Positions 3,916 through 63,499 of a DNA stretch of 64,000 nucleotides are shown here, one piece after another. The notes beneath the pieces were generated by a model, which did not search any database, was not told the DNA's origin, and saw only the letters and a program-made list of their open reading frames with translations. Both the position numbers and the translations under genes were made by a program. Each line of letters starts with the position of its first letter. Within the stretch, counting starts at the first letter, position 1. This DNA is from Alphaproteobacteria bacterium (GTDB lineage Bacteria; Pseudomonadota; Alphaproteobacteria; SMXQ01): the NCBI GenBank assembly GCA_009380075.1, contig WHSO01000010.1:1-64000 (forward strand), read 5' to 3'.

Positions 3916-4344
3916 TTAGAGTCCGAGCGCGGTCTGGATGTCGCGCTTGTGCTCTTCCTCCTGCATCAGGATATCCTCGAGAATGCGGCGCAATCCGTAT
4001 TCGCCGAGCGCCTCGGCCTGGCCGATGCGTGCCTTGTAGCGGCTGATCGCGTTGTCTTCCCCCCACAGGTCCTGCTTCAGCATGGTCTTGGAGTCTTTTG
4101 CGACGTCGATCCTTTCGACGTCGATGGTCGGCGTGCCGCCGAGGAAGGCCACCTGCTCGGCCACGGTCACGGCGTGGGCTACCTCCTCATTGGCGTGGAT
4201 GACGAGCTCCTTGATCGTACCCTCATACTCCGGTCCCGTCATGACGGCGGCATGCTGAACGTACTGGATCGCCGCGGCGTATTCCCATTCGAGATCCTTG
4301 TTCAGCTCCTTGATGAGTTGCTGCTTGGTGATTTTCTTGGCCAT
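3916..4344 (-). CDS. Ferritin-like diiron protein (bacterioferritin-type)
   Basis: A 142-residue four-helix ferritin-like protein. Diiron ligands are suggested by EWEYAAAIQY (helix 1), HANEEVAHA (helix 2), a Trp-Gly-Glu-Asp segment (helix 3) and EEEHKRD (helix 4). There is no clear haem-binding Met as in classical bacterioferritin, so a non-haem iron-storage or peroxide-scavenging role is plausible. A strong AGGAGG precedes the ATG. Directly upstream lies a palindrome matching the Irr iron-control element, which fits a gene switched on when iron is plentiful. Confidence 0.85.
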   Translation of the reverse strand: MAKKITKQQLIKELNKDLEWEYAAAIQYVQHAAVMTGPEYEGTIKELVIHANEEVAHAVTVAEQVAFLGGTPTIDVERIDVAKDSKTMLKQDLWGEDNAISRYKARIGQAEALGEYGLRRILEDILMQEEEHKRDIQTALGL

Positions 4345-4430: not shown

Positions 4431-6410
4431 CTACATCCCTGCCAGGGTATAGAGCCATCCGGTCAGGAGCGGCTTCGGCCAGATCGCATTGTACATGAAA
4501 TCGAACACGAAGATGAGCAGCACCAGGCCCCCGCATGAGGTCCAGAGCGCCTGGCGCCAGTCACCCCCCTGCGCCCGCGCGTAAAGCAGCGGGAAGACCA
4601 CGAAGGACAGGTGGAAGCCGACGAGCAGGACGCTCACGACCAGGCCGGCGATCCAGATTACGGCCTCGATCTCGCGCGATTTTTCCTGCCGCGTGTAGGA
4701 CACGATCGCCTCGCCCACGCCGCGCCGAATCCGGCCGAGCTCAACGAAATCCCGCGCGACCTGGATAGTCACCAGCAGCACGCCGAGGCCGGCCACGAAA
4801 TATACCGCAATGGACGCGCGTAACGGCCAGTGGGTGCCCTGCCACACCATGTAGGCGAATATCGACGCGAGCGTGAGCGCCAGGGCGATGCTGCCCTGCT
4901 CGATGGGCCGGCGCACCTCGTGCACGAGCTCCATGTCCATCGGTCCCGTCTTGGCGCGGTACTGCCGGTAGATCGGCCAGCATATGGTGGCAATGATGAT
5001 CAGGAAGATGATGATGACGCCGGTATGGGTCATCCATTCGTATCCGTAGCGGTCCACCGACAGCCACAGGTACTGCTGCACCTGTGGTCCCAGCACCACC
5101 GCCACCAGCAACGGTGGCCGCGGCCATCCGTAACGCTTCAGGATGATACCGATGGTGGTGAAGATGACGAAGGCGGCGATATCGGGCAGGTCGAGATTGA
5201 CCGAGAACGCGCCGACCAGGCAAAACATCAGGATCGCCGGGACGAGATAGTAATACGACACCATGCAGGCCTTGGAGAACTGCTTCGCGAAGACGAGAGC
5301 GAGCCCGGTCGCCATGAAGTTCGCGATCACCAGCGTCCAGATCATCGCAAACATGTAGGGGCGTTGGGTGGTCAGCATCGGTTCGCCGGTCTGCACGCCG
5401 ACGGCGTACAGGCCGATGAGGATGATGGCCATGGAACTTCCGCCGGGAATGCCGAACAGAAGCGTCGGGATCAGGTCCCCGCCCTCCTTGGCGTTGTTGG
5501 AACTTTCGGGCGCCAGCACGCCGCGCACGTCGCCCTTGCCGAAGTTCTCCGTATTCTTTTCGGTCTGGACCGCATGGGCGTAGGCGAACCAGTCCGCGAC
5601 CGAGGACCCCAGCCCGGGCAGGACGCCCACCCAGACCCCCACCATCGACGACCGCACCACCAGCCACCAGTGCCGGAACACGTCCTTCATGCCCTCGACC
5701 AGGCCGCTACCGAGCGACTCCACCTCGGCAATGCGGGTCCGCTTGACCATCAGCTCGAACATTTCCGGCATGGCGAAGATGCCCATGGCGATGATCACCA
5801 CTGACAGAGGCGATTCCAGGTAGCCCGTGCCGAAGGTGAAACGTTCGATGCCGGTACGGGTATCGGTGCCGATCAGCGCGATGCTGAGGCCGATGACCGC
5901 GCCGAGCAGCCCCTTCGCCGGCGACTTGCCGCCGAGCACGGAGACCGCGGACAGCCCCCACAGCACCAGCATCAGGAATTCCGGCGAGCCAAGCGCCAAC
6001 ACGAGCGGCGTGAAAATAGGAAGTGTCAGAATGAAGGTCGCTGCACCGATGACGGCGCCGACGGCCGAGCCGAGGAAGGCCGCGCCGAACGCGCGGTTGG
6101 CTTCGCCTTTCTTTGCCATCGGATAGCCGTCGAGCACGGTGGCCTGGGCGCCCGATCCACCGGGCACGCCGACGAGCACCGACGTAAAGGTATTGGCGGT
6201 GTTGCCCACCGTCGCCGCGCCGATGATGAGGGCGATGAATTCATAAGGATGCAGGGTTATGGCGTAGGGCATCAGCAGCGACAGCAGCAGAAGGCCACCG
6301 ATGCCCGGTGCGGCGGCGAAGAAACTGGCGATGGCGACGCCGATGACCATCAGCATCATCGACTTCCAGGTGATGATGCCCATCAATCCTTCGATCACGC
6401 CTTCGTACAT
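4431..6410 (-). CDS. Tripartite tricarboxylate transporter permease, TctA-TctB fusion
   Basis: A 659-residue inner-membrane protein. Residues 1-490 are TctA, the large 12-helix permease subunit, with the hallmark VPGGSGAQATVLDGYP loop and AKEGGDLIPTLLFGIPGGSS. The final 150 residues add four hydrophobic segments resembling TctB, including HWPLRAS, which matches DWPLRAS in the separate TctB at 37948-38451. The two subunits are therefore fused. TTT systems use a periplasmic TctC protein to deliver carboxylates by ion symport. I start at the ATG (6410), preceded by GAGGA; an in-frame TTG lies five codons earlier. No tctC is adjacent; the nearest binding protein is 6.8 kb away. Confidence 0.9.
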   Translation of the reverse strand: MYEGVIEGLMGIITWKSMMLMVIGVAIASFFAAAPGIGGLLLLSLLMPYAITLHPYEFIALIIGAATVGNTANTFTSVLVGVPGGSGAQATVLDGYPMAKKGEANRAFGAAFLGSAVGAVIGAATFILTLPIFTPLVLALGSPEFLMLVLWGLSAVSVLGGKSPAKGLLGAVIGLSIALIGTDTRTGIERFTFGTGYLESPLSVVIIAMGIFAMPEMFELMVKRTRIAEVESLGSGLVEGMKDVFRHWWLVVRSSMVGVWVGVLPGLGSSVADWFAYAHAVQTEKNTENFGKGDVRGVLAPESSNNAKEGGDLIPTLLFGIPGGSSMAIILIGLYAVGVQTGEPMLTTQRPYMFAMIWTLVIANFMATGLALVFAKQFSKACMVSYYYLVPAILMFCLVGAFSVNLDLPDIAAFVIFTTIGIILKRYGWPRPPLLVAVVLGPQVQQYLWLSVDRYGYEWMTHTGVIIIFLIIIATICWPIYRQYRAKTGPMDMELVHEVRRPIEQGSIALALTLASIFAYMVWQGTHWPLRASIAVYFVAGLGVLLVTIQVARDFVELGRIRRGVGEAIVSYTRQEKSREIEAVIWIAGLVVSVLLVGFHLSFVVFPLLYARAQGGDWRQALWTSCGGLVLLIFVFDFMYNAIWPKPLLTGWLYTLAGM

Positions 6411-54693: not shown

Positions 54694-54860
54694 ATTGACC
54701 TTTCTACTACGCGTTCTACGCGCTCCACGTCTCTAGGCATAGGCAAAATCGACGAAATGATATAAGCACCATGCATCTACTGTTCAACTACGTCATCACA
54801 AGACTAATCGCGGCCCCCCTGCGTCGATTGATCAGGCGTGAAGACACCTCCTACTTTCAG

Positions 54861-54998
54861 CTACTTTTTTTTGCGGCGTGACAACGGAGACTGTTTCGCT
54901 AGGACTGCAGAGAACGCGGTACCTGCGGGGGCAGCTTTCGGCTTTTCTTGCTTGGGTTTCTTGATTTCACGATTGCTTCGTCTTTGGCCCTTGCTCAT
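54861..54998 (-). CDS. Small basic protein (45 aa), MSKGQRRSNRE type
   Basis: A 45-codon frame with CAGGAGAG before the ATG at 54998. The product begins MSKGQRRSNREIKKPKQ and is Lys/Arg-rich throughout, ending RRKKK. Short proteins starting MSKGQ-RSNRE-KKPK are, from memory, widespread in Alphaproteobacteria with no known function. The charge suggests a nucleic-acid or ribosome-associated role. Confidence 0.72.
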   Translation of the reverse strand: MSKGQRRSNREIKKPKQEKPKAAPAGTAFSAVLAKQSPLSRRKKK

Positions 54999-58696: not shown

Positions 58697-61498
58697 CTAA
58701 AGCGATATTACCGTTTGCAGGGAAGCGGACGGGTCCGGATATGTCGTCTGGGCTTTCGCGAGAGCAGCCGACAGTTCCTTCGCCAGCGTCTGCACGTGCG
58801 GCTGGGTCATGATCTCATAGTGCCGCCCGGAGATCGGCCGGATTTCCAGGCAGCCCCGGATCAGGTAGTTCCATCCGTCGTGCTGGTCGGCATGCGCCCA
58901 AGCATAGCGTTCCGCCTTGAATAATACTGCATCACCGTCATAGGGGCGCGCCCGATAGCTGCGCCGGATCATGTCGTTGGCAGGCACCGGACACCGCAGG
59001 ATGCGCGGCAGCGGTTGCCCTCGTGACTCGAAAAACCGCCAGGTGTTAGAAAAACATTTGACCCGCAGCGTCATGTATACCGTCTTGGTAACGTTTCTAG
59101 CGCGTAGCCAAAGGTAACCCGGCACTTGGGCTGGAGCCAACGACTTCACCCGCTGCCTATGATGCGCAAACCAGTCCCTTGTCGATACGCGTCGTTCACC
59201 CACTTGACTGTATGTGTCGATCAAGGCAAGCAGGGCAACGTCGTCACCGGCGGCACGCAGGTGCTGGGCCATGACGTAAGCGACCCGCCCACCGAAGGAA
59301 TATCCGCCGAGGTAATACGGCCCGACGGGTTGGACCTTCTTGATTTCGCGGACATAATGCGCCGCCATCTCGTCGATCCGCGTAAGCGGTTCCTCCTCGC
59401 CGTCGAGGCCGCGGCACTGGATGCCGTAGAACGGCTGCGCGTCGCCGAGGAAGCGCGACAGGTCGCGATAATTCAGCACCTGCCCGTTGCCGTCGTGCAC
59501 GCAGAAGAAGGGCGAACTTTTGCCCTTGGGCTGGATCGGGACAAGGCAGGGGGAAGGAGCAGTTTCCTCGATTCGTTGCGCCATCCTGGCGGCGGTACCG
59601 GCCTCGAACAGGACCGAACGGGGGAGCCACCGGCCTAGCTCTTTCTCGACGCGCAGAAACAACTCGACCGCCTGCAGCGAATCGCCGCCGAGCATGAAGA
59701 AATCCTCGTTGAGACCGACACGGTCGAGCCCGAGCACCTCCGCCCACAGGCGTTGCAGCTTCGCTTCCAAAACGGTCGCAGGCCGGTTGTCGATCGCCAC
59801 GGGCTGCGCCCTGGACGAATCCGTGACCAGGCCGAAGGCCTCCGCCAGATTGCGCCGCTGGATCTTGCCCGTGGGGCCCGTGGGAATCTCATCGACGATG
59901 ACAAAGCGACGTGGCACCTTGAACGGTGCAAGCCGTCCGCGCAAGAACTTCGACAGGACCTCATCGGTCAGGTCGGCGCCCTTCGCCGGCACGACTGCGG
60001 CCGCCACTTCCTGGCCCAGCGTCGCGTGCGGCACCGGGAATGTGACAGCGTCGGCCACGTCGGGGTGGTCCTTGAGCGCGCCGTCGACCTCGGACGGAGT
60101 GATCTTCTCGCCCCCGCGGTTGATGATGTCCTTGATCCGGCCCGTGAGCGTCACGTAGCCATCCCGGTCGATGATCCCCTCGTCGCCGGTGCGGAACCAG
60201 CCGTCCACGAAGCATTTTTCATTTGCGGCGGCGTCGTTTTCGTAGCCGGAGAAAATGCCCGCACTATCGACCACGACCTCGCCGCGCGCGCCATGCGCCA
60301 GCAGCCGGTCGTCGGGCCCCATGATCGCGATCCTGCCGTCGACGGAAACGCCCACGGTTCCCGGCTTGCGAACCGCGGGCGGCAGCGGGGTGCCGCAGAT
60401 GTAGCCGGTTTCCGTGCTGGCATAGGTTGAGATCACCGGTGCGCGGAAAACTGTTTCGAGGGTTTCGGCGATCCTCGGGTCGAGATGGCCGGACCCCGTC
60501 TTTATGAATCGTAACTGCGATTCCCTGATCGCAGCGGCGTGGTCTAGCGCCGCCGCGCAGATCGCGTGGTGAAAGGTATAGCTGCCGGTGTACCAGGTCG
60601 GTGCCAGCGTCGCGATCAGACGGAAGAACGACTCCACCGAGAATTCCGGGAGCGTGACCACGCTTGCGCCGGAAAACAGGGTGGCCCCGAGGGATGTGTA
60701 GAGCCCGTGGCCGTGAAACAGCGGCATCAGGTTGAGACAGCGGTCCGACGCCCTCATCTTCTGGGCCTGGGCATGACGGGCCACTTTGGCCACAAGCTGC
60801 CGATGACTTACGGGGACCACCTTGCTGTGGGACGTGGTACCCGAGGTGGTGAGCACGAGGGCCAGATCATCCGGTTGCGCGGGACCTGGCCGTGCGGGCG
60901 TTCCGGCTGGGGGGCCTGACCGAATGTCGATCATTCCGGTGATATCGCCCGCGATGCACTCGACCTCCAGCAGCGGCAGTCCGATCTTTCGGGCGGCGGC
61001 GCGGGCCGCGGTGTCGATTCCCACATCGACCGCGACCGCCTGCACCTTCAGGTCGCGCAGGTAGAGCACGAATTCGCCGAGGGAAAGGTCCGGATTCATC
61101 GGGACCGCCACCGCGCCGTCCATGATTCCCGCGATGAGGGCGGCGGTGGCCGCAGTGTTGGGACCGATCGTCGCGATGCGGTCGCCGCGGCCGAAGCCCG
61201 CGGCCTTAAGCCGCTCCTGGACGCGGTCCATCAGGCGCGCGAGCCCGGTGTAGGTCAGCGGCGCCCGTCCTTCGGCGAGAAGCGCCGGCGCGTCCGGCGT
61301 CGTCCGAGCGTGCCGGCGGACGATCTCTCCGATCGTTTCCTTGACTGAAATTTCCAATGACGATGTATCGCCTACGTGGAACATCCCAAAAGGTTGGCAC
61401 GCGGACACGTTAGCGGCTGCCGTACGAGTGGGGGCCTGATTCACTACAGTCGTGCTTCGCGTCATTTTAAGCTTTTTTCCCTGTTGGCTAAGGTTCAT
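58697..61498 (-). CDS. Single-module A-T-TE synthetase (NRPS-like)
   Basis: A 933-residue enzyme. An adenylation domain fills residues about 50-545 (LTTSGTTSHSK, MPLFHGHGLYTSL, STETGY, GWFRTGDEGIIDRDGY, GKIQRRN). A carrier domain follows (about 565-640, LGGDSLQA with the phosphopantetheine Ser near 604), and a thioesterase completes it (about 670-930, GYSFGG with the catalytic Ser near 731). The adenylation domain resembles acyl- and oxalyl-CoA ligases more than amino-acid-activating ones. A-T-TE enzymes such as RalA join two keto acids; alternatively it loads and releases a single acyl group. No transport or tailoring genes are adjacent. The start codon is uncertain because ATGs at codons 1, 12 and 39 all have weak sites. 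Confidence 0.88.
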   Translation of the reverse strand: MNLSQQGKKLKMTRSTTVVNQAPTRTAAANVSACQPFGMFHVGDTSSLEISVKETIGEIVRRHARTTPDAPALLAEGRAPLTYTGLARLMDRVQERLKAAGFGRGDRIATIGPNTAATAALIAGIMDGAVAVPMNPDLSLGEFVLYLRDLKVQAVAVDVGIDTAARAAARKIGLPLLEVECIAGDITGMIDIRSGPPAGTPARPGPAQPDDLALVLTTSGTTSHSKVVPVSHRQLVAKVARHAQAQKMRASDRCLNLMPLFHGHGLYTSLGATLFSGASVVTLPEFSVESFFRLIATLAPTWYTGSYTFHHAICAAALDHAAAIRESQLRFIKTGSGHLDPRIAETLETVFRAPVISTYASTETGYICGTPLPPAVRKPGTVGVSVDGRIAIMGPDDRLLAHGARGEVVVDSAGIFSGYENDAAANEKCFVDGWFRTGDEGIIDRDGYVTLTGRIKDIINRGGEKITPSEVDGALKDHPDVADAVTFPVPHATLGQEVAAAVVPAKGADLTDEVLSKFLRGRLAPFKVPRRFVIVDEIPTGPTGKIQRRNLAEAFGLVTDSSRAQPVAIDNRPATVLEAKLQRLWAEVLGLDRVGLNEDFFMLGGDSLQAVELFLRVEKELGRWLPRSVLFEAGTAARMAQRIEETAPSPCLVPIQPKGKSSPFFCVHDGNGQVLNYRDLSRFLGDAQPFYGIQCRGLDGEEEPLTRIDEMAAHYVREIKKVQPVGPYYLGGYSFGGRVAYVMAQHLRAAGDDVALLALIDTYSQVGERRVSTRDWFAHHRQRVKSLAPAQVPGYLWLRARNVTKTVYMTLRVKCFSNTWRFFESRGQPLPRILRCPVPANDMIRRSYRARPYDGDAVLFKAERYAWAHADQHDGWNYLIRGCLEIRPISGRHYEIMTQPHVQTLAKELSAALAKAQTTYPDPSASLQTVISL

Positions 61499-62137
61499 CC
61501 AAAGGCGGATCGTTCTAGTTCATCGCAATCAACCTACTTAATGAAATCTTAGTCGCGAATGAGCTATCGCCCCGCATTCGGAAACTACTTAGTCATTGGT
61601 GTAGCTTCACGCACCGCAGCGCGCTTGTTCCGGAGCCGACAGCTGAAAGCGACGACCTAGAATGAGAGGACTGTGCGTCGCCGATTGCCCGGATATCTGA
61701 TTACAATTGCCTATCTGCGGGATTTGTGGGATCGCGTCGCGATACTCGCGTAAAGTGCGACTTGGTCAACGAATCGTGCATTAACCAACTTGAACGTCCG
61801 CTGAGCGTCAGGAAAATTCCGTGCCACTCTATCTATCCGCCAAGCGCACTTGGTAATTCGGGCGGATAAAGGCGTGACGTGGGCTGCCTTTACAGCAGGT
61901 CCGAAATCTCAACAACGCAACTGGTGCGGCAGGAAACTACCATCTGGAAACGGCGACAAAGGTCGGTAACCAGCACAGAGTAGATTCCGTCCCTGTGGCC
62001 TGAGACGTGGAGTCTTTAGTATTAACTTCATTGAGTGTGGTGAACCGACGATTTCTCGCCGGACGTATTTAGAGCCTAACTACGATTACTGAATTGCGTT
62101 TTCGGGTGCAATGCCCGGAAAAGGGCTCTTTTTGGGA
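61499..62137. other. Intergenic region before the small RNA
   Basis: About 640 bases with moderate GC and no gene I can support. Nothing resembling a GGAAC-type EcfG promoter was found in it. The final 100 bases lead into the small RNA, so its promoter should be here. Confidence 0.4.
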
Positions 62138-62248
62138 TCCTATGTCCCCCCATGGACGTAGGACTCTTTTGATGGTCCTGCGTCCTCCCCTTGGACGTAA
62201 AGCCTCCCTGTTAAACTTGCCGGGAACATTGGTTCCCGGCATTTTTTT
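62138..62248 (+). ncRNA. Candidate small RNA with two C-rich hairpin loops and terminator
   Basis: Hairpin 1 (62138-62163) has a 10-bp stem TCCTATGTCC / GGACGTAGGA and loop CCCCAT. Hairpin 2 (62179-62199) has TGCGTCC / GGACGTA and loop TCCCCTT. A third C-rich stretch, CCTCCC, lies unpaired at 62203-62208. The RNA ends with a 10-bp intrinsic terminator (TGCCGGGAAC / GTTCCCGGCA, ATTG loop, 62218-62241) and eight T. The two hairpins are related copies. C-rich loops that mimic anti-Shine-Dalgarno sequence are a feature of the CcsR/cuckoo-type and alpha-r14-like small RNAs of Alphaproteobacteria. The 5' end and promoter were not located. Confidence 0.65.
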
Positions 62249-62589
62249 TCGCTATCACGTGAAGGGGGATGCCTCTTCCTGTAAGAGGTGGACAAAGAAT
62301 GAGACGCCGAAAACCAAACGGTGTCCAGCCGCCGCAATTTGCTGTGACCGCCCGCATCAGGTTGAAGGGACGGGTCAGACGGCACAGCCGTAAGGCCCTG
62401 GAGCCGCGAATAAAGCCATAAGACGCCGCCGCTATTCGCAAAGCCCAGAACAACATCACCGTGAAGTAGCCGAGCCTTTCCCACGGCTCCGAGCGACGAG
62501 CTACCGAACAAGAAAGCGCCAGTTTCGGCAAGAACCTCACGCTTTCTCTTTCAGACCCGGCCGGTCGAGGGACGATGGCCCCCGTTGCA

Positions 62590-63096
62590 TCAGGCGGCGT
62601 CTGGGAACGATGCGGTTCTGCTATCCAGTTCCTGCTGCAATGTGTCCCGGGCACGTGAACAGCGTGACTTTACGGTCCCCATGGGTATGCCGAGCTCCCG
62701 CGACACTTCCTTGTAGGATCTGCCCTCCACCCCGATGAAGTAAAGGATCATCTTCTGCTGGCTTGGCAAACGCCTCATGGCTTCTCTTACCGCACGAAGC
62801 ATGACTGAGTGGGTCTGATTCGGCGGTACGGACAGCGAGTTAATAGCGGCTTCCGGATTTGCCGCTTCCTTCCATTTCTTGTTGCGCCGGATCTCACTGA
62901 TATACAGGTTGTGCAGGATCGTGAACAACCAGGCGCGAAGGTTGGTGCCCGGCTTGTACAGGCTCGCTTTCGTGAGGGCTCGCACAACGCATTCCTGAAC
63001 CAGATCCTCCGCAGCCGTTGGATTGTGAGCAAGTGCCCGTGCATAGCGCATCAGCGCAGGCAAGTGGATTTCGATCTGTTGGGCGACCTGGTTCAT
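62590..63096 (-). CDS. ECF-type sigma factor
   Basis: A 168-residue extracytoplasmic-function sigma factor with region 2 (TNLRAWLFTILHNLYISEIRR) and region 4 (LPSQQKMILYFIGVEG... GIPMGTVKSRCSRARDTL). The ATG at 63096 has GAGAG upstream; an ATG four codons earlier also fits. GTNLRAWLFTIL resembles the EcfG general-stress group, but no NepR anti-sigma lies beside it, so the class is open. The start is one base after the PRC-barrel gene stop. Confidence 0.85.
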   Translation of the reverse strand: MNQVAQQIEIHLPALMRYARALAHNPTAAEDLVQECVVRALTKASLYKPGTNLRAWLFTILHNLYISEIRRNKKWKEAANPEAAINSLSVPPNQTHSVMLRAVREAMRRLPSQQKMILYFIGVEGRSYKEVSRELGIPMGTVKSRCSRARDTLQQELDSRTASFPDAA

Positions 63097-63097
63097 T

Positions 63098-63499
63098 CTA
63101 TCTCTCATTCTTCGTTGAATAATTGAAATCGGGAAGCCTCTTCAGCGACTCCTTGCTGGCGCCCCGGAATATCATCTTTCTATGTTCCACTCGGAGGACG
63201 GTGTAAGGAACCACGACGTATCTGATGCCTAAATTCAGGAACCCGCCCACCGACAGGATTGCAAAGGGTTCCTTTTCATTCGTAGTGACAATCAAGTCGT
63301 GAACCGTGCCTACGTCCTCACCGAATTCGTTGACGACGGTGCTGCCGACAATCCTGGAAATCAGGTAGCCAGTGGTCGCCACCCGATTTGGTTCCGAATG
63401 AAGCATTAGCATCTCCGGCGAACCTTGCGGTAACGCCTGGTCGATCAGCGCTACGCTGAAGATCGCAGTACTTATCATGAACGTAAACGGACGTATCAT
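63098..63499 (-). CDS. Secreted PRC-barrel domain protein
   Basis: A 133-residue protein with a Sec signal (FTFMISTAIFSVALIDQALP) and a PRC barrel (ISRIVGSTVVNEFGEDVGTVHDLIV... FLNLGIRYVVVPYTVLRVEHRKM). PRC barrels act in photosynthetic reaction centres, RimM and many envelope proteins; here it is exported. It directly precedes the sigma factor gene and is likely co-transcribed with it. Confidence 0.82.
   Translation of the reverse strand: MIRPFTFMISTAIFSVALIDQALPQGSPEMLMLHSEPNRVATTGYLISRIVGSTVVNEFGEDVGTVHDLIVTTNEKEPFAILSVGGFLNLGIRYVVVPYTVLRVEHRKMIFRGASKESLKRLPDFNYSTKNER

Follow-up and report, generated by a model that had tools for sequence, protein, structure and literature searches.

The plus strand of the 64,000-nt stretch of alphaproteobacterial DNA analysed here (the window) very probably carries the gene of a small regulatory RNA at its far end, at 62093-62249. 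We read this RNA, with a probability of roughly 0.7, as a trans-acting, AbcR-like paralogue of an RNA found downstream of lsrB, with a duplicated hairpin unit and three seeds that would pair with Shine-Dalgarno sequences. It clearly illustrates how a small RNA acquires a targeting module when a single hairpin within its gene is duplicated, and the unmodified parental copy is present in the same genome, so that the gain in target range is directly measurable.

Structure of the predicted RNA

Read 5' to 3', the RNA consists of hairpin H1, a short linker hairpin, the C-rich hairpin H3a, a second linker hairpin, the C-rich hairpin H3b, the motif CCTCCCTGTT and an intrinsic terminator (Table 1). 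The 3' end was set at the terminator T-run, and the 5' end was inferred and placed just before H1. The duplicated part of the RNA gave a fold z-score of -5.3, which can be read alongside the values for the whole RNA and the terminator in Table 1, and the structure is not a product of chance. The strong plus-strand terminator described in the initial annotation was confirmed. One stem pair of H1 is G-C in the window copy, C-G in the lsrB-linked copy of the same genome and A-U in a related genome (G005), according to the alignment.

Table 1. Coordinates of the predicted RNA gene, its parts and the neighbouring genes in the window.
Feature	Position	Strand	Basis or remark
Long ORF, divergent from the RNA gene	58697-61498	-	ORF list; context
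Predicted small RNA gene	62093-62249	+	About 155 nt; fold z = -4.9; 3' module matched by model R1
Hairpin H1 (UUUUCGGG-UGCAAUG-CCCGGAAAA)	62099-62122	+	Homologous to H1 of lsrB-linked copies (alignment with nine relatives)
Repeat unit 1: linker hairpin and C-rich hairpin	62122-62160	+	Direct repeat, spacing 38-39 nt
Hairpin H3a (TCCTATGTCC-CCCCAT-GGACGTAGGA)	62138-62163	+	Loop CCCCAU exposed; predicted target AUGGGG(GG)
Repeat unit 2: linker hairpin (GGACUC...GGUCC) and C-rich hairpin	62161-62199	+	Direct repeat; fold z = -4.4
Hairpin H3b (TGCGTCC-TCCCCTT-GGACGTA)	62179-62199	+	Loop UCCCCUU exposed; predicted target AAGGGGA
Conserved single-strand motif aSD2, CCUCCCUGUU (DNA CCTCCCTGTT)	62203-62212	+	Predicted target AACAGGGAGG; invariant in 20 aligned members
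Intrinsic terminator	62218-62249	+	10-pair stem, then T8; z = -6.0
ECF sigma factor gene, convergent with the RNA gene	62590-63108	-	Pfam Sigma70_r2/r4; context
PRC-barrel protein gene, overlaps the ECF sigma gene start	63098-63499	-	Context

Two low-energy folds were predicted, a nested one (-66.9 kcal/mol) and a two-hairpin one (-66.3 kcal/mol). Both C-rich loops are open in either fold because the loops of H3a and H3b cannot pair with each other, and the predicted unpaired probability of their cores was at least 0.97 in both, in agreement with the earlier proposal that such loops are suited to Shine-Dalgarno pairing. The third C-rich stretch, CCTCCC at 62203-62208, had been described as unpaired; it does lie in a motif that is invariant in the family, but it was only partly unpaired, with a probability of 0.23-0.78 as computed for the isolated RNA.

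Relationship to the RNA family downstream of lsrB

A covariance model of the 3' module (R1), which was built from 19 relatives with the window excluded, matched the window at 62177-62250 with 69.2 bits (E = 3.8e-22). A further R1 match at 54818-54872 was weak (12.6 bits) and was judged to be due to chance. In nucleotide searches (blastn) of relatives, the 3' module turned up in the majority of genomes of the bacterial family, and the genome of the window (G000) has a second copy on contig C44, which is lsrB-linked, 93% identical to the window copy over the 3' module and identical to it in the terminator stem. At least one R1 copy was present in 11/11 family genomes, although the only convincing match in G004 was to a weaker, different RNA; a second strong copy was seen in just two of these genomes (G000 and G002). 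Among 289 sampled alphaproteobacterial genomes, 110 had a copy. We call the window copy a paralogue because it matches R1 but does not occupy the trxB-lsrB position.

Every examined family locus that had enough sequence showed a related RNA downstream of lsrB, as did 57 of the 80 named lsrB loci (L112-L191; Thalassospira, Azospirillum, Kiloniella, Pelagibius, Reyranella, Roseomonas and others), with a median distance of 211 nt from the lsrB stop codon. The standard copy immediately follows trxB and a LysR-type gene of the LsrB/VtlR type (MDWDKLRxFHAVAEAGSFTHAGE), and in its standard form it has one C-rich hairpin, ACGUC-UCCCA-GACGU, followed by GAAGCCUCCCUGUU and the terminator. H3b is the counterpart of this invariant hairpin. 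The window RNA and the lsrB-linked RNAs of Thalassospira, Azospirillum, Kiloniella, Pelagibius, Reyranella and relatives share a 3' module made up of a C-rich hairpin, AAGCCUCCCUGUU and the terminator, but the latter have one near-invariant ACGUCUCCCAGACGU hairpin whereas in the window RNA this hairpin is present twice, in diverged copies whose stems are longer and whose loops differ.

Compensatory changes in relatives, named in the initial annotation as a check, were found in the terminator: in 61 matches from named lsrB loci, 7 of the 8 pairs of the terminator helix had changed on both sides, a count that leans towards the model as the alignment was fitted to R1, but the seed hairpin hardly varied. 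Over this family alignment, 96.6% of pair cells were paired. The lsrB-linked RNA family is widespread in non-rhizobial Alphaproteobacteria, and Rfam holds no member of it above gathering; this spread points to an LsrB/VtlR-AbcR regulatory unit far older than rhizobia. In Rhodospirillales-type bacteria, the RNA downstream of trxB-lsrB, with no Rfam match at gathering, was noted among the named loci L112-L191 and at L031, L032, L034 and L035. Tandem pairs of the lsrB-linked RNA were observed in Thalassospira (L113, L117), and some genomes had three tandem or four to five copies of the family (G177:C1:3175650-3176247, G243, G253).

Tandem duplication of the seed hairpin

In the window copy, an RNA of the lsrB-linked type, the seed hairpin was duplicated in tandem and its copies then diverged. 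A repeat search returned direct repeats that have H3a and H3b as their ends, and the duplicated unit (approximate limits in Table 1) also includes the short linker hairpin. The tandem duplication noticed at the outset was real, with a unit larger than described: the self-alignment score of 33 was reached by 0/2000 shuffles (shuffle maximum 23), and the next best score for the upstream regions of relatives' RNAs (n = 76) was 21. The two units differ at two 5'-arm positions of the stem, with a standard or G-U pair kept in each, and share the 3' arm GGACGTA. Of the 385 genomes searched, none besides that of the window was found to have the duplicated hairpin region; matches in G003 and G007 covered the first half of the query only, at their lsrB-linked copy.

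Two or three extra C-rich-loop hairpins were observed in two lsrB-linked relatives, L124 (Pelagibius; ~5800-5912) and L127 (~4060-4198), where they were apparently gained independently. Seed gain therefore seems to be recurrent in the lsrB-linked family.

Comparison with AbcR

The AbcR1 and AbcR2 RNAs (alpha-r15, RF02345) of rhizobia, Agrobacterium and Brucella are a close known parallel. The gene order in Agrobacterium is trxB-vtlR-abcR1-abcR2 (PMC7486931) and AbcR1/2 of Sinorhizobium adjoin lsrB (PMC3712013); the relatives of the window RNA, including the C44 copy of its own genome, likewise lie downstream of trxB-lsrB/vtlR, and sibling copies occur in both groups. AbcR RNAs carry a pair of anti-Shine-Dalgarno seeds, of which one sits within the loop of the first hairpin and the other follows that loop (PMC8844928), and this layout of a 5' hairpin-loop seed plus another C-rich seed ahead of the following stem recurs here in the loops of H3a and H3b and in CCUCCCUGUU, followed by a terminator with a U-run. 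The hairpin loop of the relatives contains CUCCCA, which is identical to Brucella AbcR motif M1 (PMC5461406), and the predicted targets, like those of AbcR, include periplasmic solute-binding proteins. In contrast to AbcR, the second seed of the family is CCUCCCUGUU rather than UUCCCCUC or GUUCCC, and the window copy is not linked to lsrB and contains its seed hairpin as a tandem duplicate.

The Rfam ar15 model did not list 62080-62255 at E ≤ 10, had no match in the genome of the window at E ≤ 0.01, did not match the lsrB-linked RNAs, and returned three weak matches over 289 genomes, none of them above the cut-off. The best ar15 match (L192) reads as an MmgR-like RNA with no lsrB nearby and was set aside. 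Judged by this model, the RNA is best termed AbcR-like and not a formal member of alpha-r15. The comparison with rhizobial AbcR, made by published description and the Rfam model, supports the view that the family works like AbcR.

Seeds and predicted targets

The seeds are complementary to Shine-Dalgarno sequences. Complementary sites at the proper distance before ATG were counted in the genome of the window and compared with a reversed-pattern control. The 8-mer complementary to aSD2 (CAGGGAGG) occurred 27 times (cf. 2 in the control) and AAGGGGA, which is complementary to H3b, occurred 38 times (cf. 3), an enrichment of the kind expected if both are real Shine-Dalgarno sequences. The 16 ORFs of at least 60 aa behind CAGGGAGG sites included three TctC receptors, one SBP_bac_1 protein and one NMT1-like protein. 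For TctC, 3/20 genes had such a site compared to 27 sites in ~3400 genes (p ~5e-4, with the gene number estimated), in a test that was made after seeing the target list and that may partly reflect related leaders. As evidence on targets, this transporter signal appears suggestive only, and the seed concerned is common to the window copy and the lsrB-linked copy.

An hfq gene is present in the genome. The RNA, if transcribed as predicted, would present three distinct C-rich seeds (CCCCAU, UCCCCUU and CCUCCCUGUU) instead of two, and these would, together with Hfq, pair with the Shine-Dalgarno regions of mRNAs, including those of uptake proteins, and block their translation. The window RNA would act in the manner of AbcR, by Hfq-dependent repression of transporter mRNAs, and its target set would probably be distinct from that of the lsrB-linked copy.

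Genomic context and control

The window copy does not lie at lsrB but between a divergent minus-strand ORF and a convergent pair of genes for a PRC-barrel protein and an ECF sigma factor (62590-63499). Read by eye, the sequence of the ORF at 58697-61498 resembles an acyl-AMP ligase that includes carrier and thioesterase parts. A second copy of the ECF sigma gene, 91% identical and not accompanied by the RNA, is located at G000:C29:72654-73169, and the sister species (G001) gave no good match to the gene. We considered that the RNA was carried along when the ECF sigma gene was duplicated and rejected this, as the C29 copy is limited to the gene plus 44 nt of matching downstream sequence (62437-62480).

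Promoter models for RpoD, RpoH, EcfG, other ECF factors and RpoN all scored at shuffle level upstream of the RNA. Many lsrB-linked copies have a VtlR box (GCAT-N3-TG-N3-T) ~170-230 nt upstream of the motif, and many in other genomes have an upstream palindrome, GATGTTGC-N3-GCAACATC, which could serve as an LsrB operator or else form a 5' RNA hairpin; upstream of the window copy, both the VtlR-type box and the palindrome are absent. The palindrome was observed 46-127 nt before the seed hairpin in L082, L154, L014, L121, L127 and others, and most of the variation in its 3' half preserves G-U pairing.

On this comparison of sequences, the window copy is an unlinked paralogue of the lsrB-linked RNA that has none of the lsrB-linked upstream elements. 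We propose that a copy of the AbcR-like RNA adjacent to lsrB/vtlR moved by duplication to an unlinked site and then lost these elements, that the 38-39 nt unit of linker and C-rich hairpin was duplicated in tandem and its copies diverged, and that the window copy would now be under transcriptional control different from that of the lsrB-linked copy. The window copy is known from one genome only. A more specific reading, which we regard as less probable than not, is that it is a sibling of the lsrB-controlled AbcR-like RNA that came under a new control signal and acquired new mRNA specificity through duplication of the seed hairpin; the new signal would then possibly be the neighbouring ECF sigma factor, itself duplicated.

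Alternative readings

If the window copy were a duplicate of the lsrB-linked RNA that has fallen silent and is decaying, it would also be unlinked, confined to a single genome and devoid of a recognisable promoter, and its hairpin sequence might drift, as it has done, from the near-invariant ACGUCUCCCAGACGU of the family. We regard this as rather unlikely, since all stems are still paired, the terminator stem is intact, the pairing of H1 is kept and aSD2 is unchanged. Some C-rich RNAs, CcsR among them, are processed from mRNAs (PMC10253847), and the element could accordingly be derived from a 3' UTR or be a terminator or attenuator acting in cis on a neighbouring gene. That it is such a part of another gene and not an independent RNA is very improbable, however: there is no plus-strand gene upstream, both neighbours are on the minus strand, the small ORFs that cover the element lack Pfam matches and were rejected as genes, and the relatives are independent units in other contexts. 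The initial annotation's proposal of a dedicated plus-strand regulatory RNA is supported.

The same annotation placed the RNA with the CcsR/cuckoo type, and suggested Rfam searches with the CcsR/cuckoo and alpha-r14 families. Several hairpins that expose anti-Shine-Dalgarno seeds are indeed a trait of NfeR1 (alpha-r14; PMC10746234) and of CcsR/cuckoo RNAs, but no homology of these to the window RNA was detected and NfeR1 repeats one identical CCUCCUCCC motif on unrelated stems, whereas the window RNA repeats its stems and varies its seeds. The searches gave nothing at gathering anywhere in the 64 kb, and alpha-r14 was absent even at E ≤ 10. The cuckoo motif CCUCCUCCC is in neither loop, the DUF1127 gene (PF06568) that marks CcsR/cuckoo loci (PMC10253847) had no match in the genome at E ≤ 0.1 (assembly 97% complete), and the strong R1 match places the RNA in another family, so that this assignment is most unlikely to be correct. 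Permissive Rfam searches had SorX (31.1 bits; gathering 46.6), suhB/MmgR (RF00519; 31.1 bits; gathering 41), SorY and BjrC1505 as their best matches, all well below gathering; these alphaproteobacterial RNAs have a CCUCCCU core and a terminator in common with the window RNA. Membership of the group of alpha-r8 (MmgR/SisA) and SorX/SorY is nevertheless improbable. The alpha-r8 core 10-mer UUUCCUCCCU is absent, the window having GCCUCCCUGU and reading AAGCCUCCCUGUU, and the flanks and gene linkage of MmgR/SisA-D, SorX and SorY differ from those of the window RNA: the usual linkage of alpha-r8 is to a gene for N-formylglutamate amidohydrolase (PMC12559287), whereas the window's relatives are linked to lsrB. 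The 3' halves of the two groups may have a common origin.

Compared to GsrN of Caulobacter, in which a loop with a run of six cytosines recognises G-rich mRNA sites (PMC5869019), H3a is similar in its loop. GsrN is controlled by sigma-T and activates katG, whereas no promoter of that type was above chance at the window copy. A third RNA with CCTCCCTGTTAAACTT was observed in the genome of the window at L038:942-1079 (G000:C88), between regulator-like and Hsp20-like genes; it is close to BjrC1505 (46.1 bits, cf. gathering 50), and similar loci are present in G004, G005 and G006.
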